Shown: piece by piece, positions 39,954 to 61,415 of the stretch
How positions within the stretch are numbered: the first letter of the stretch is position 1
Layout: each line of letters begins with the position of its first letter
Source: Shewanella putrefaciens
GTDB lineage: Bacteria; Pseudomonadota; Gammaproteobacteria; Enterobacterales; Shewanellaceae
Reading direction: 5' to 3'
Assembly: GCF_016406325.1 (NCBI RefSeq)
Contig: NZ_CP066370.1
Location: 3,658,001 to 3,722,000 of the forward strand
DNA length: 64,000 bases
Notes under the pieces: generated by a model
The model's database searches: none
What the model saw: the letters and a program-made list of their open reading frames with translations, nothing else
Told to the model about the DNA's origin: nothing
Translations under genes and position numbers: made by a program

Positions 39954-41348
39954 TTAAAGGTGTTCTTCGGCATATTCAGCCAAACGTGAACGTACAACCC
40001 CATTGAGGTACAAGTTAGCACTACCTTCAAAGTCTTTAAAACGCTCAACAATGTAGGTCAGCCCTGAGGTAACGGCAGTTAAATAATTAGAATCGATTTG
40101 CGCTAAGTTACCGCAACAAATCAGCTTTGTACCTTCACCCATACGGGTAATCATAGTTTTAATCTGCGAAGCGGTGAGATTTTGGCACTCATCCAATAAT
40201 ACAATTGAGTTTTGAATCGAGCGGCCACGCATAAAGTTAATCGACTTAAACTGAATATTGGCCTTTTCCATAATGTAATTGAGGCTGCCCGTGGGATTCA
40301 CATCATTCTTGTGCAGCACTTCTAAGGTATCTGTGATGGCGGCGAGCCACGGCATCATTTTCTCTTCTTCTGTGCCGGGTAAAAAACCAATAGACTCCGC
40401 TATTTCAGGCGTGTTACGGGTGACTATCACCTTGTCGTAGCGATTACGCTCAACCACAAGCTCAAGGGCTGCAGCCATAGCAAGCAGGGTTTTACCACAA
40501 CCTGCGGGACCCGTTAAAATCACGAGTTCGATATCGGGATCGAGTAGCGCCTGTAATGCCATGCCTTGATAGACATTTTTCGGTTTAACCCCCCAAGCCT
40601 CAAGGTTTTTCATCCGCTCACGACCTAAATCTAAGATATGTAGGTGAGTATCAGTACGCCCCGTGACTCGGCCACAAAAATCCGACTCTGTATCGATAAG
40701 GTATTGGTTAATATAAAATTGATCGTTTTCCAGATCCTTAAGTGGCACTTCATGGATAATATGTCTGCCATGGCGCTCGGTAGAAACTTTATTTAAATGT
40801 TCCCAAAAATTGCCTTCAAATTGGTAAAAACCTTTACTGAGGAAGCGAATATCATCAATCAACTGGTCGGTACGGTAATCTTCCACTAATTGAATGCCAG
40901 CACCTTTGGCTTTAAGGCGCATATTAATGTCTTTAGTGACTAATACGACGGTACGTGGATGGTGGAGGTTTTGTAGGTGAAGTGCAGTGTTGATAATGCG
41001 GTTGTCGTTTCCATCCCCCGGCAAGCTGCCTAAGGTAAAATCAACAAGGTGATCAGGGAAAATAGAGAGCGCTCCTATCGCATCGGCATGACCCTCTCGA
41101 CTCGGCAGTGGTACACCATTAATAATCTGCTCAGGTGTGGTATCACCTCCTAGGGTATCTTCCAACGCCCTGATGGCCACCCTAGCATCCCGACTCACAT
41201 CACTCTTTCGATCTTTTATCTGGTCTAGCTCTTCTAGCACTGTCATCGGAATGACCACATCGTGCTCTTTAAACGAATAGATCGCCAAAGGTTCATGCAG
41301 TAACACATTGGTATCCAGTACAAACAACTTTCTGTCGTCTTGTTCCAT
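39954..41348 (-). CDS. PhoH family ATPase with N-terminal PIN domain (PhoH2 type)
   Basis: The 464 residues fuse a PIN ribonuclease domain (about 1-150; acidic site begins FVLDTNVLLHEP, with later Asp in TKDINMRLKAKG) to a PhoH ATPase domain (about 245-450) with Walker A GPAGCGKTLLA and Walker B SIVLLDECQN. PIN-PhoH proteins have been described as RNA helicase-RNases related to toxin-antitoxin components. The name PhoH comes from phosphate-starvation induction in E. coli. A strong Pho-box-like site with a spaced -10 lies upstream on the same strand (41575-41592), which is consistent with such control here. The gene stands alone between two terminators. Confidence 0.93.
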   Translation of the reverse strand: MEQDDRKLFVLDTNVLLHEPLAIYSFKEHDVVIPMTVLEELDQIKDRKSDVSRDARVAIRALEDTLGGDTTPEQIINGVPLPSREGHADAIGALSIFPDHLVDFTLGSLPGDGNDNRIINTALHLQNLHHPRTVVLVTKDINMRLKAKGAGIQLVEDYRTDQLIDDIRFLSKGFYQFEGNFWEHLNKVSTERHGRHIIHEVPLKDLENDQFYINQYLIDTESDFCGRVTGRTDTHLHILDLGRERMKNLEAWGVKPKNVYQGMALQALLDPDIELVILTGPAGCGKTLLAMAAALELVVERNRYDKVIVTRNTPEIAESIGFLPGTEEEKMMPWLAAITDTLEVLHKNDVNPTGSLNYIMEKANIQFKSINFMRGRSIQNSIVLLDECQNLTASQIKTMITRMGEGTKLICCGNLAQIDSNYLTAVTSGLTYIVERFKDFEGSANLYLNGVVRSRLAEYAEEHL

Positions 41349-41750
41349 GGCGCCTCCAGAGTGCTTGATTGATGTCTACGCTACATCCTGTCTCACGTTA
41401 GATTGCATGGCTCCTGTCATTAGCTTAGATAAGGTTAGAATGATCTTTAGGTTCAAACATCTAGCTCGAAAAAAGCTAAAGGCTTAAATTAATACTGGCA
41501 CCAAACTCACCAAAGCTCAATTAAGTTTGCCATTGTTTAAGTCTGTGACTCGAGGGCAGTGTAGGTCCCTCGATATGACAGTAGCATGACAAATCGATGG
41601 CCGACTACGACAATTTTCTGACTTGTTCAATTTGTAATCTAGCGTTTGGGGAATTAGGCTCTAACGGGTGAGAGGGCGATTCAAATATTGCCAGTATTGG
41701 TATAACATACGCGCCCTTTGTTAAAGTCCGCCCAGAAATGAGAATTTAAG
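41349..41750. other. Divergent intergenic region between the PhoH-family gene and rapA
   Basis: This 402-bp region has no ORF of note. It holds promoters for two divergent genes. A Pho-box-like direct repeat for the leftward gene is at 41575-41592. I did not find a confident sigma-70 promoter for rapA; the nearest -10 candidate is TATAAC at about 41701. Confidence 0.6.
41558..41592 (-). promoter_or_regulatory. Pho box and -10 element upstream of the PhoH-family gene
   Basis: On the minus strand TTGTCATGCTACTGTCAT (41592 down to 41575) contains two TGTCA repeats with an 11-bp period, as in the PhoB consensus CTGTCATAAATCTGTCAC. After 11 bases a -10-like TACACT follows (41563-41558). PhoB promoters place the -10 about 10 bp after the box. 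The gene start is 226 bases further on, which implies a long leader. This is a motif-based prediction. Confidence 0.55.
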
Positions 41751-59497: not shown

Positions 59498-59509
59498 CTT
59501 CTTTATCTA

Positions 59510-59540
59510 AGCGCTAAAATTTTTCGTTAAGTTTAGCGCT
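59510..59540 (+). terminator. Weak terminator after the 59189 gene
   Basis: The arms AGCGCTAAA (59510-59518) and TTTAGCGCT (59532-59540) form a 9-bp stem followed by TTCCCTTTCC, a poor T tail. Confidence 0.55.
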
Positions 59541-59598
59541 TTCCCTTTCCTCTTTACCCTGTTAGCGCCAGAGAAAACCCCTTTTAACGCCACAAAAA

Positions 59599-59632
59599 TT
59601 GTCATCATTTTGTCATTTCTAAGTCATAGACT
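59599..59632 (+). promoter_or_regulatory. Pho box and -10 element upstream of the EAL-CBS-GGDEF gene
   Basis: TTGTCATCATTTTGTCAT (59599-59616) holds two TGTCA repeats with an 11-bp period, and a third near-repeat (AGTCA) continues the period at 59622. Ten bases after the box a -10-like TAGACT (59627-59632) follows, as in classic PhoB-activated promoters. The start codon is 28 bases further on, with AAGGGG as ribosome site. This is a motif-based prediction. Confidence 0.65.
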
Positions 59633-59660: not shown

Positions 59661-61415
59661 ATGACAAGTTTAGATCTCGCTAAAGAGCTTGATAAAATAA
59701 TTTCTAAAGGGGCTATCAGTCCATTATTCCAGCCTATTTTCAATATATTAGAACATAAGATCCATGGATTTGAGGCCCTAAGTCGCGGCCCAGAACACAG
59801 CCCATTATATTCACCCGTTCCCCTTTTTCAGACCGCCGAACATCAGGGTAAACTCAGTGAACTCGAAACCCTCTGTCGACGGATTTCACTTGAGCAATTT
59901 AAATTCCGTCAGTTTCAGGGGCGACTATTTATCAATATCTCACCCAAGGCGCTGTTAGATCCCTGCCACCCCAAAGGTATGACACTGCAACTATTGCAAC
60001 AGCTTGGGATTTCACCTTCACAGGTAGTTATTGAACTCTCGGAGCAATATCCTGCGGATGATATAGACCTGCTTAAATCCTGCTTAAATCACTATCGTAG
60101 TCAAGGATTTATGACGGCAATTGACGATTTAGGTGCGGGATATTCTGGCTTAAGACTCTGGTCAGAATTGTCACCCGATTATGTGAAGATTGATCGTCAC
60201 TTTATCCATCAGATCGACTCAACCCCAGTAAAACAAGAATTTGTGCGATCCATTGTTGAACTCTGTCAGAGTTTAACCTGTAAAGTGATAGCCGAAGGGA
60301 TTGAAACTCAAGAGGAATTAGCAGTACTTAAACAACTTGGCATTGTGTATTGCCAAGGTTATTTACTCGGTCGTCCTGAGGCTATGCCCTGCAGAGCAAT
60401 GAAAGCCACCTTAGTTCCCAATAATACCCAAGCACAACCCCGATATAGTGAGTCAGCAGAAAGCCTCTGTTGCAGTGCCGTTACCGTTCTACCAAACCTA
60501 AAGCTTAAACATCTAAGTGATACTTTTATCTCCCAACCTGCACTGCAAGCAGTTGTTGTGGTTGAAGATCAAGTACCCCAAGGTATTATTAGCCGTGCAA
60601 CATTACTTGAGCTTTTTAGCACCCCCTATGGTCGAGCATTACATGAAAATCATGCCGTTAGCGAGGTCATGGATCCTCAGGTACTGCAGATAGAAGCCAA
60701 TGAACCCCTTTCGACTGTTAGTCAGCTACTAACGTCAGAAAGTGCAAATACCGTGGCACAGCAATTTATTATTCTGCGCCGTGGCAAATTGCTCGGCATT
60801 GGTCACACCAAAGATCTATTACAGCGCATAACTGAGCACAGAATTAAAATGGCACGCCATGCTAATCCACTTACGGACTTGCCGGGAAATGTGCCTATAC
60901 AAGAAGAGCTAAAGCGACTAAGAATTCAACAAAAGTCTTTTTACCTCGCTTATTTCGATCTGTGTCATTTTAAACCCTACAACGATATTTATGGTTTTTG
61001 TCGTGGTGATGAAGTGATTTGCGAAGTGGCCAATTTATTAATGAAATATAAAAGTGATAACTGCTTTATTGGCCATGTGGGAGGCGATGATTTTGTGATA
61101 ATTAGTACATGCGATCAAATCGTAACTCGTTGTCAGCGGATATTGACTGACTTTGAACACCATAAACAATTGTTCTATAGTGCCGAACATTGGCAAGCAC
61201 AACAAATGCTGGCAGATGATAGACAGGGGCAAGCCTGCTACCACAAACTTATAAGCCTATGCGTTGGCTTACTCTCGCCGGAACATACCCATAATTGCAA
61301 TGAACATAGCTTGTCCACTCTGAGTGCGAGGGCAAAAAAACAGGCAAAATCCGCAAGTAATGGATTTTGCCTGTTGGAAAATAATGCACTCAATCCACAC
61401 GCATTAATCGCTTAA
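59661..61415 (+). CDS. EAL-CBS-GGDEF protein, probable c-di-GMP phosphodiesterase
   Basis: The 584 residues run EAL (about 15-250), a CBS pair (about 270-395) and GGDEF (about 405-570). The EAL catalytic set is intact: E38-A-L, N in LFINISPKAL, E in VIELSEQ, the DDLGAGYS loop, K in DYVKIDRHF, AEGIE and QGYLLGRP. The GGDEF motif is GGDDF (474-478) and no clear RxxD site precedes it, so cyclase activity is doubtful and a regulatory GTP-binding role is possible. There is no membrane segment. A Pho-box-like promoter lies directly upstream. Confidence 0.92.
   Translation: MTSLDLAKELDKIISKGAISPLFQPIFNILEHKIHGFEALSRGPEHSPLYSPVPLFQTAEHQGKLSELETLCRRISLEQFKFRQFQGRLFINISPKALLDPCHPKGMTLQLLQQLGISPSQVVIELSEQYPADDIDLLKSCLNHYRSQGFMTAIDDLGAGYSGLRLWSELSPDYVKIDRHFIHQIDSTPVKQEFVRSIVELCQSLTCKVIAEGIETQEELAVLKQLGIVYCQGYLLGRPEAMPCRAMKATLVPNNTQAQPRYSESAESLCCSAVTVLPNLKLKHLSDTFISQPALQAVVVVEDQVPQGIISRATLLELFSTPYGRALHENHAVSEVMDPQVLQIEANEPLSTVSQLLTSESANTVAQQFIILRRGKLLGIGHTKDLLQRITEHRIKMARHANPLTDLPGNVPIQEELKRLRIQQKSFYLAYFDLCHFKPYNDIYGFCRGDEVICEVANLLMKYKSDNCFIGHVGGDDFVIISTCDQIVTRCQRILTDFEHHKQLFYSAEHWQAQQMLADDRQGQACYHKLISLCVGLLSPEHTHNCNEHSLSTLSARAKKQAKSASNGFCLLENNALNPHALIA

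Follow-up and report, generated by a model that had tools for sequence, protein, structure and literature searches.

The closest described systems, as far as the available portions of the reports cited here go, are those of RapA and PA3258. In Pseudomonas fluorescens Pf0-1, low phosphate induces RapA through PhoB; RapA then depletes c-di-GMP and, by way of LapD and LapG, causes the adhesin LapA to be released (PMC3032545). PA3258 of P. aeruginosa has the domain order EAL-CBS-GGDEF, is called homologous to RapA and gives phosphodiesterase-type phenotypes in a heterologous host (PMC12900916); its name does not occur in the main text of PMC8041468. In Vibrio cholerae, PhoB is reported to lower biofilm and to modify the c-di-GMP pool (PMC4741415). 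In Escherichia coli the PHO box is a pair of direct repeats, each 11 bases long and with CTGTCAT as its core (PMC4415409).

LrbR of Shewanella putrefaciens CN32 is also a Shewanella EAL phosphodiesterase, and tunes the BpfAGD adhesin under nutrient limitation. It is, however, controlled by LrbA and cAMP-CRP and is a response regulator, unlike the EAL-CBS-GGDEF protein considered here, and on this description, from the available part of that report, we rejected it as the same gene (PMC12415220). DdpB (BB2957) of Bordetella has two CBS domains between its enzymatic domains and a GGDDF signature, as the Shewanella protein appears to have, but it carries ESL instead of EAL, and the available part of the report describes neither activity nor Pho control for it (PMC12805831). 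In the open-licence literature we found no statement on Pho control of the EAL gene in Shewanella or on a family-wide box. Hence the kind of system is already known from RapA, while the breadth of the linkage between box and gene was not found in print in that literature.

On the + strand of the window, by which we mean the whole 64-kb stretch of DNA that was analysed, a gene for an EAL-CBS-GGDEF protein of 584 aa (59661..61415) is preceded by a 33-bp element (59600..59632) with the form of a PhoB-type promoter core, namely three GTCA repeats in an 11-bp register followed by a -10 element. Repeat 1 (TGTCA, 59600..59604), repeat 2 (TGTCA, 59611..59615) and repeat 3 (AGTCA, 59622..59626), a weaker unit that abuts the -10 element TAGACT (59627..59632), have GTCA cores starting at 59601, 59612 and 59623, which is an exact 11-bp spacing, and 28 bases separate TAGACT from the ATG at 59661. 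A preliminary description had named two TGTCA repeats, a near-repeat, TAGACT and the 28 bp to the ATG, and every one of these coordinates is confirmed in the sequence.

At promoters of this type the -10 element lies about 10 bp after an 18-bp Pho box that stands in place of the -35 element. The same is seen here, with direct repeats at an 11-bp period and a -10 element about 10 bp past the 18-bp box. A promoter scan listed no sigma70-type promoter on the + strand from 59400 to the ATG of the EAL gene, as expected if PhoB replaces the -35 element. Further upstream, a hairpin with a weak T tail (59509..59541, + strand; -12 kcal/mol, z -4.3, 1/200 shuffles as good) follows a 102-aa ORF and is possibly its terminator; it is absent from the output of a consensus terminator scan. 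Since the hairpin lies between this ORF and the box, the EAL gene may be its own transcription unit.

Judged from the sequence, the 33-bp element is with high confidence a PhoB-activated promoter that would serve a predicted RapA/PA3258-type c-di-GMP phosphodiesterase when phosphate is short. Phosphorylated PhoB would bind the repeats in tandem and bring in RNA polymerase, substituting for the -35 contact. Hydrolysis of c-di-GMP by the EAL domain would follow, and with less c-di-GMP the cells would give up adhesion and tend towards a free-swimming state; the CBS unit or pair of units and the GGDDF domain probably tune the enzyme through bound nucleotides. Starvation for phosphate would probably induce the enzyme, which may loosen biofilms, by analogy with RapA in P. 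fluorescens. The Pho control reported for RapA and the EAL-CBS-GGDEF order reported for PA3258, in the available portions of both papers, match the predicted control and the domain order of the Shewanella gene. The proposed mechanism thus has precedents in other bacteria, and we consider the gene very likely to be their counterpart in Shewanella, a likeness drawn from the published descriptions of RapA and PA3258 and from homologues in Pseudomonadaceae.

The protein comprises an EAL domain at residues 9-239 (59685..60377, + strand; Pfam 1.9e-52 and a fold match), a CBS domain at residues 333-390 (60657..60830, + strand; Pfam) and a GGDEF domain with a GGDDF signature at residues 404-501 (60870..61163, + strand; Pfam and alignment). 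A predicted model (mean pLDDT 88.9, pTM 0.57, with an uncertain domain arrangement) has EAL-domain structures as its best fold matches, and its secondary structure suggests a second CBS-like unit at around residues 264-330. Among the 25 NCBIfam families shown of 26, only the generic GGDEF model TIGR00254 is above its cut-off, and no equivalog is.

We counted residues over 161 translated proteins of more than 500 aa, named distant loci included. E38, N92, E125, D155, D156, K176, E212 and E215, which we take to be the catalytic residues of the EAL domain, are unchanged in 161/161 aligned members, and the EAL triplet reads ESL or EGL in 6/161. The protein had been described as a c-di-GMP phosphodiesterase; as a prediction, this is supported by the eight EAL positions and by the RapA and PA3258 precedents, to the extent that the available reports describe them. 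In the family of Pseudomonas sp. Bc-h (Pseudomonadaceae), a match at 1e-40 is found in 121/148 genomes. Full-length matches there show 38-45% identity nearly end to end, the best 30 lying at 43-45%, and some weaker matches cover the EAL part only. The genome of Pseudomonas sp. Bc-h itself has EAL-region matches only, and no full-length match. Assignment to the RapA/PA3258 type draws on the EAL-CBS-GGDEF order, the full-length homology with Pseudomonadaceae proteins, the catalytic residues and the upstream Pho box; the alignment used for order and homology comprised 63 of the 64 sequences picked.

The alternative that survives best, although we regard it as unlikely, accepts that PhoB controls the gene but places the net effect elsewhere than in a fall of c-di-GMP, the GGDDF/CBS half making a bifunctional or effector-type protein with a nucleotide-dependent output. 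The unusual GGDDF signature (residues 474-478, window 61080-61094) is invariant in 161/161 aligned members, so this domain is under constraint; yet the EAL residues presumed to be catalytic are likewise all kept in 161/161. The literature bears on both sides. PA3258 with an inactivated EAL motif shows residual apparent cyclase activity in the heterologous host (PMC12900916), and DdpB, with GGDDF and ESL, has no activity in the available part of its report (PMC12805831), whereas RapA lowers c-di-GMP in its own host, P. fluorescens (PMC3032545).

A 33-bp matrix was built from the upstream regions of 30 Shewanella pstS orthologues (23 unique) out of 60 found; it comes from pstS promoters only and is independent of the EAL gene. 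A scan with a Shewanella PhoB matrix had been put forward as a check on the Pho box, and with this one the EAL-gene site scores 26.8, compared with 0.0 for the next best place on both strands of the window. None of the 26 other EAL loci of the genome (96,042 bases) is above -2.0. The Shewanella pstS promoters have the same repeat-plus-minus-10 anatomy as the EAL-gene promoter, reading TGTCA-N6-TGTCA-N7-G(T/A)CATAGA-N-T in 30/30 loci (one with TGTAA as first repeat), with the G(T/A)CATAGA segment at the position of repeat 3 in 30/30. The two differ in the distance of the element from the ATG, which is 95-112 bp for pstS and 61 bp for the EAL gene, and in a further TGTCA after the -10 element, which is present in 29/30 pstS promoters but absent at the EAL gene. 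In the same genome PhoB is above its curated cut-off at 1,359,454-1,360,131, 1.6 kb from pstS at 1,361,748; a phoB gene and an anatomy common to the core Pho gene pstS are therefore both found.

Exact TGTCA-N6-TGTCA occurs twice in the 64-kb window versus 0.10 expected, a count of 2 being reached in 0/100 shuffles, and at 13 places in the 4.39-Mb genome versus 6 for the same pattern reversed. Among these 13 are places before PstS, before a PhoU_div/PHO4 phosphate transporter and before a PhoH-family gene. The last of these lies in the window (39954-41348, - strand) and matches NCBIfam PhoH2 and PhoH, both below cut-off. Its pair, at 41576-41591 (- strand), is about 240 bases before the ATG and has TACACT after it, at a spacing one base longer than that of the -10 element at the EAL gene. 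The exact 11-bp core pair is kept in 23/30 genus loci (30 of 58 matching genomes taken), so that the earlier count of two Pho-like promoters in one window stands, the PhoH site being conserved too. The stringency of the 33-bp pstS matrix is too high for other Pho sites of this kind (-4.6 at the PhoH site and 6.7 at the phosphate transporter), and outside the genus we therefore counted 11-bp pairs.

It is very improbable that the repeats bind another OmpR-type response regulator in place of PhoB. Related regulators are many, as 56 places in the genome match the PhoB model, 1 of them over the cut-off, but the EAL-gene anatomy recurs before pstS in 30/30 loci, similar sites lie before other phosphate genes, and the E. 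coli box too is documented as a pair of 11-base direct repeats around CTGTCAT (PMC4415409, available portion).

An orthologue of the EAL gene was found at 1e-60 in 77/129 Shewanella genomes. The other 52/129 have no match at this threshold, hence the circuit is dispensable, and the gene may have been lost repeatedly in the genus. Three genomes (G033, G067 and G098) have the gene in two pieces or as a partial match. All 77 orthologue upstream regions were read, the best match to the pstS matrix being sought in the 200 bases before the ATG with 100 dinucleotide shuffles each. At 72/77 the score was not reached in 100 shuffles; the remaining 5/77 failed the test, one with 1/100 shuffles and four with 16-25. 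In 64/72 the match falls between -59 and -67 relative to the ATG; the other eight are at -77, -98 or -107. One identical 33-bp element is carried by 17/77 orthologues, among the closest relatives, and the genus rows are therefore not independent, with 46 unique sites among the 72.

Over these 46 sites, repeat 2 is the most conserved unit, with 1.74-2.00 bits per column, and repeat 1 has 1.01-2.00 bits. The T, the A and the final T of the -10 element are invariant in 46/46. The second spacer drifts, its columns 18-23 (59617-59622), before the third GTCA, holding 0.06-0.20 bits. Not every spacer position drifts, as the first spacer is partly kept, with an invariant T after repeat 1 and then 0.29-0.95 bits. 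Repeat 3 is weaker (G in 38, C in 38 and A in 39 of 46; the second core letter is T in 28 and C in 16), and from these letters it is better called a conserved segment beside the -10 element than a full third site. As far as columns can tell, the pattern is the one expected of a PHO box under selection. A comparison with related Shewanella had been suggested at the outset, and in it the repeats and the -10 element are kept, and the flanks and the second spacer change.

Beyond the genus we counted GTCA pairs with at most 1 mismatch in 150 bases upstream, alongside shuffled controls. The class set comprised 28 scored of 33 matching genomes, one of which (L342) shares coordinates with a Pseudomonadaceae place so that the sets overlap, and the Pseudomonadaceae set comprised the best 30 of 122 places in 121 genomes. 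At period 11, pairs were found in 76/77 genus loci, 47/60 loci of the order outside the genus, 20/28 of the class outside the order and 28/30 Pseudomonadaceae, versus shuffled means of 5.2, 2.3, 1.6 and 1.1, respectively. Other one-mismatch sense periods are also above the shuffles, namely 8 (19/77) and 13 (18/77) in the genus, 13 (16/60) in the order, and 14 (25/30) and 8 (11/30) in Pseudomonadaceae. The antisense strand gives period 11 with one mismatch in 6/77, 7/60, 8/28 and 11/30 of the genus, order, class and Pseudomonadaceae sets. Because these other periods and the antisense strand rise as well, the one-mismatch counts overstate specificity, most of all outside the genus, and the exact counts are cleaner. 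Exact GTCA-N7-GTCA at period 11 is present in 59/77 genus, 17/60 order, 13/28 class and 21/30 Pseudomonadaceae loci, and the exact sense counts at the other periods from 6 to 16 are 0 or 1 in the genus and 0-2 across all four sets. Furthermore, when the pstS matrix was applied to the 60 order loci, 38/60 had scores reached by 0/100 shuffles and 47/60 by at most 5.

A FastTree tree was made of 94 dereplicated members, near-copies and proteins outside 520-700 aa having been removed; its 'Class' rows include named loci, some of them from outside the class. Shewanella forms one clade, which the order rows adjoin. The box is present in 74/94 members, with at least 14 changes needed on the tree, and 15 of the 20/94 members lacking it are among the distant rows. 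These data suggest that gene and box were inherited together, the box being lost or degraded in some lines, and vertical inheritance with repeated loss would be the simplest reading of the tree. That the repeats are a product of chance or a purely phylogenetic leftover with no present function is the least credible alternative of all, since the element shared by those 17 closest relatives, in itself no proof of selection, and the degraded boxes of some lines are outweighed by cores that stay while columns 18-23 fall to near zero information, by exact counts in which only period 11 stands out and by a box in 74/94 dereplicated members. The Pho-box reading of the preliminary description is upheld, at the level of sequence, by repeats and a -10 element kept across the genus, by an 11-bp pair that extends well beyond it and by a matching anatomy at pstS.

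A broader proposal is offered tentatively, as one that we judge slightly more apt to fail than to hold in its entirety. Under it, a PhoB box before an EAL-CBS-GGDEF phosphodiesterase would be an ancestral, vertically inherited gammaproteobacterial circuit that predates the split of Pseudomonas and Shewanella, and not a speciality of P. fluorescens; in addition, the CBS unit and the invariant GGDDF would form a second gate, the enzyme firing only when phosphate and nucleotides are both low. The interest of the locus comes mainly from how far the linkage seems to reach beyond the one case studied so far. If true, the best-understood connection of phosphate hunger with biofilm release would pass from a single pseudomonad case, RapA, to a conserved one, open to tests in Shewanella, which serves in the laboratory as a model of biofilm growth on minerals and electrodes. 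A further gain would be a condition in which to seek the missing phenotype of PA3258.

On the output side, LapD is present in the genome as a gene that looks intact. In the stretch read it is accompanied by parts of a type I secretion system, a protein of the OmpA family and a portion of an RTX-repeat protein, with a LapG-like ORF in between and next to LapD. The RapA pathway runs through LapG, whereas the LapG-like gene here is split, its ORF falling into two frames at a stretch of eight G (L428:9982-10693, outside the window), with a C93 peptidase match in the second piece only. The split may be a real break or a sequence error. Given the split, a working promoter may not be enough for LapG to bring about release at low phosphate in this strain, and dispersal is the least sure part of our reading. 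A lower c-di-GMP level may also act on other outputs, motility among them.

The leaders of the homologous genes also differ. The Shewanella promoter is pstS-like with a short leader. Pseudomonadaceae leaders often hold a GC-rich hairpin downstream of the Pho box and ahead of the ATG, in many cases with T-rich sequence after it. Of the 28 Pseudomonadaceae leaders with a box, 25 show a GGCC-type stem pattern; the hairpin might act as a terminator or attenuator, or serve as a stem that stabilises the 5' end.

We also scanned the genome with a loosened PHO-box pattern, in which the EAL-gene site is the sole zero-mismatch place, a result that we discounted as the pattern was written after the site had been seen. 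At up to 3 mismatches it gave 503 places versus 414 for the reversed control, and the pattern alone is not specific. At least 4 of the 13 exact matches to TGTCA-N6-TGTCA seem spurious: one before a presumably MraZ-like gene (L080), one beside a DUF1302 gene on the other strand (L085), one with no clear target (L086) and one inside an ORF (L087). Elsewhere in the genome, three TGTCA units in an 11-bp register (2327101-2327127, - strand) lie before a choice-of-anchor I / DUF7151 gene, which, going by this arrangement, is likely a further Pho target.
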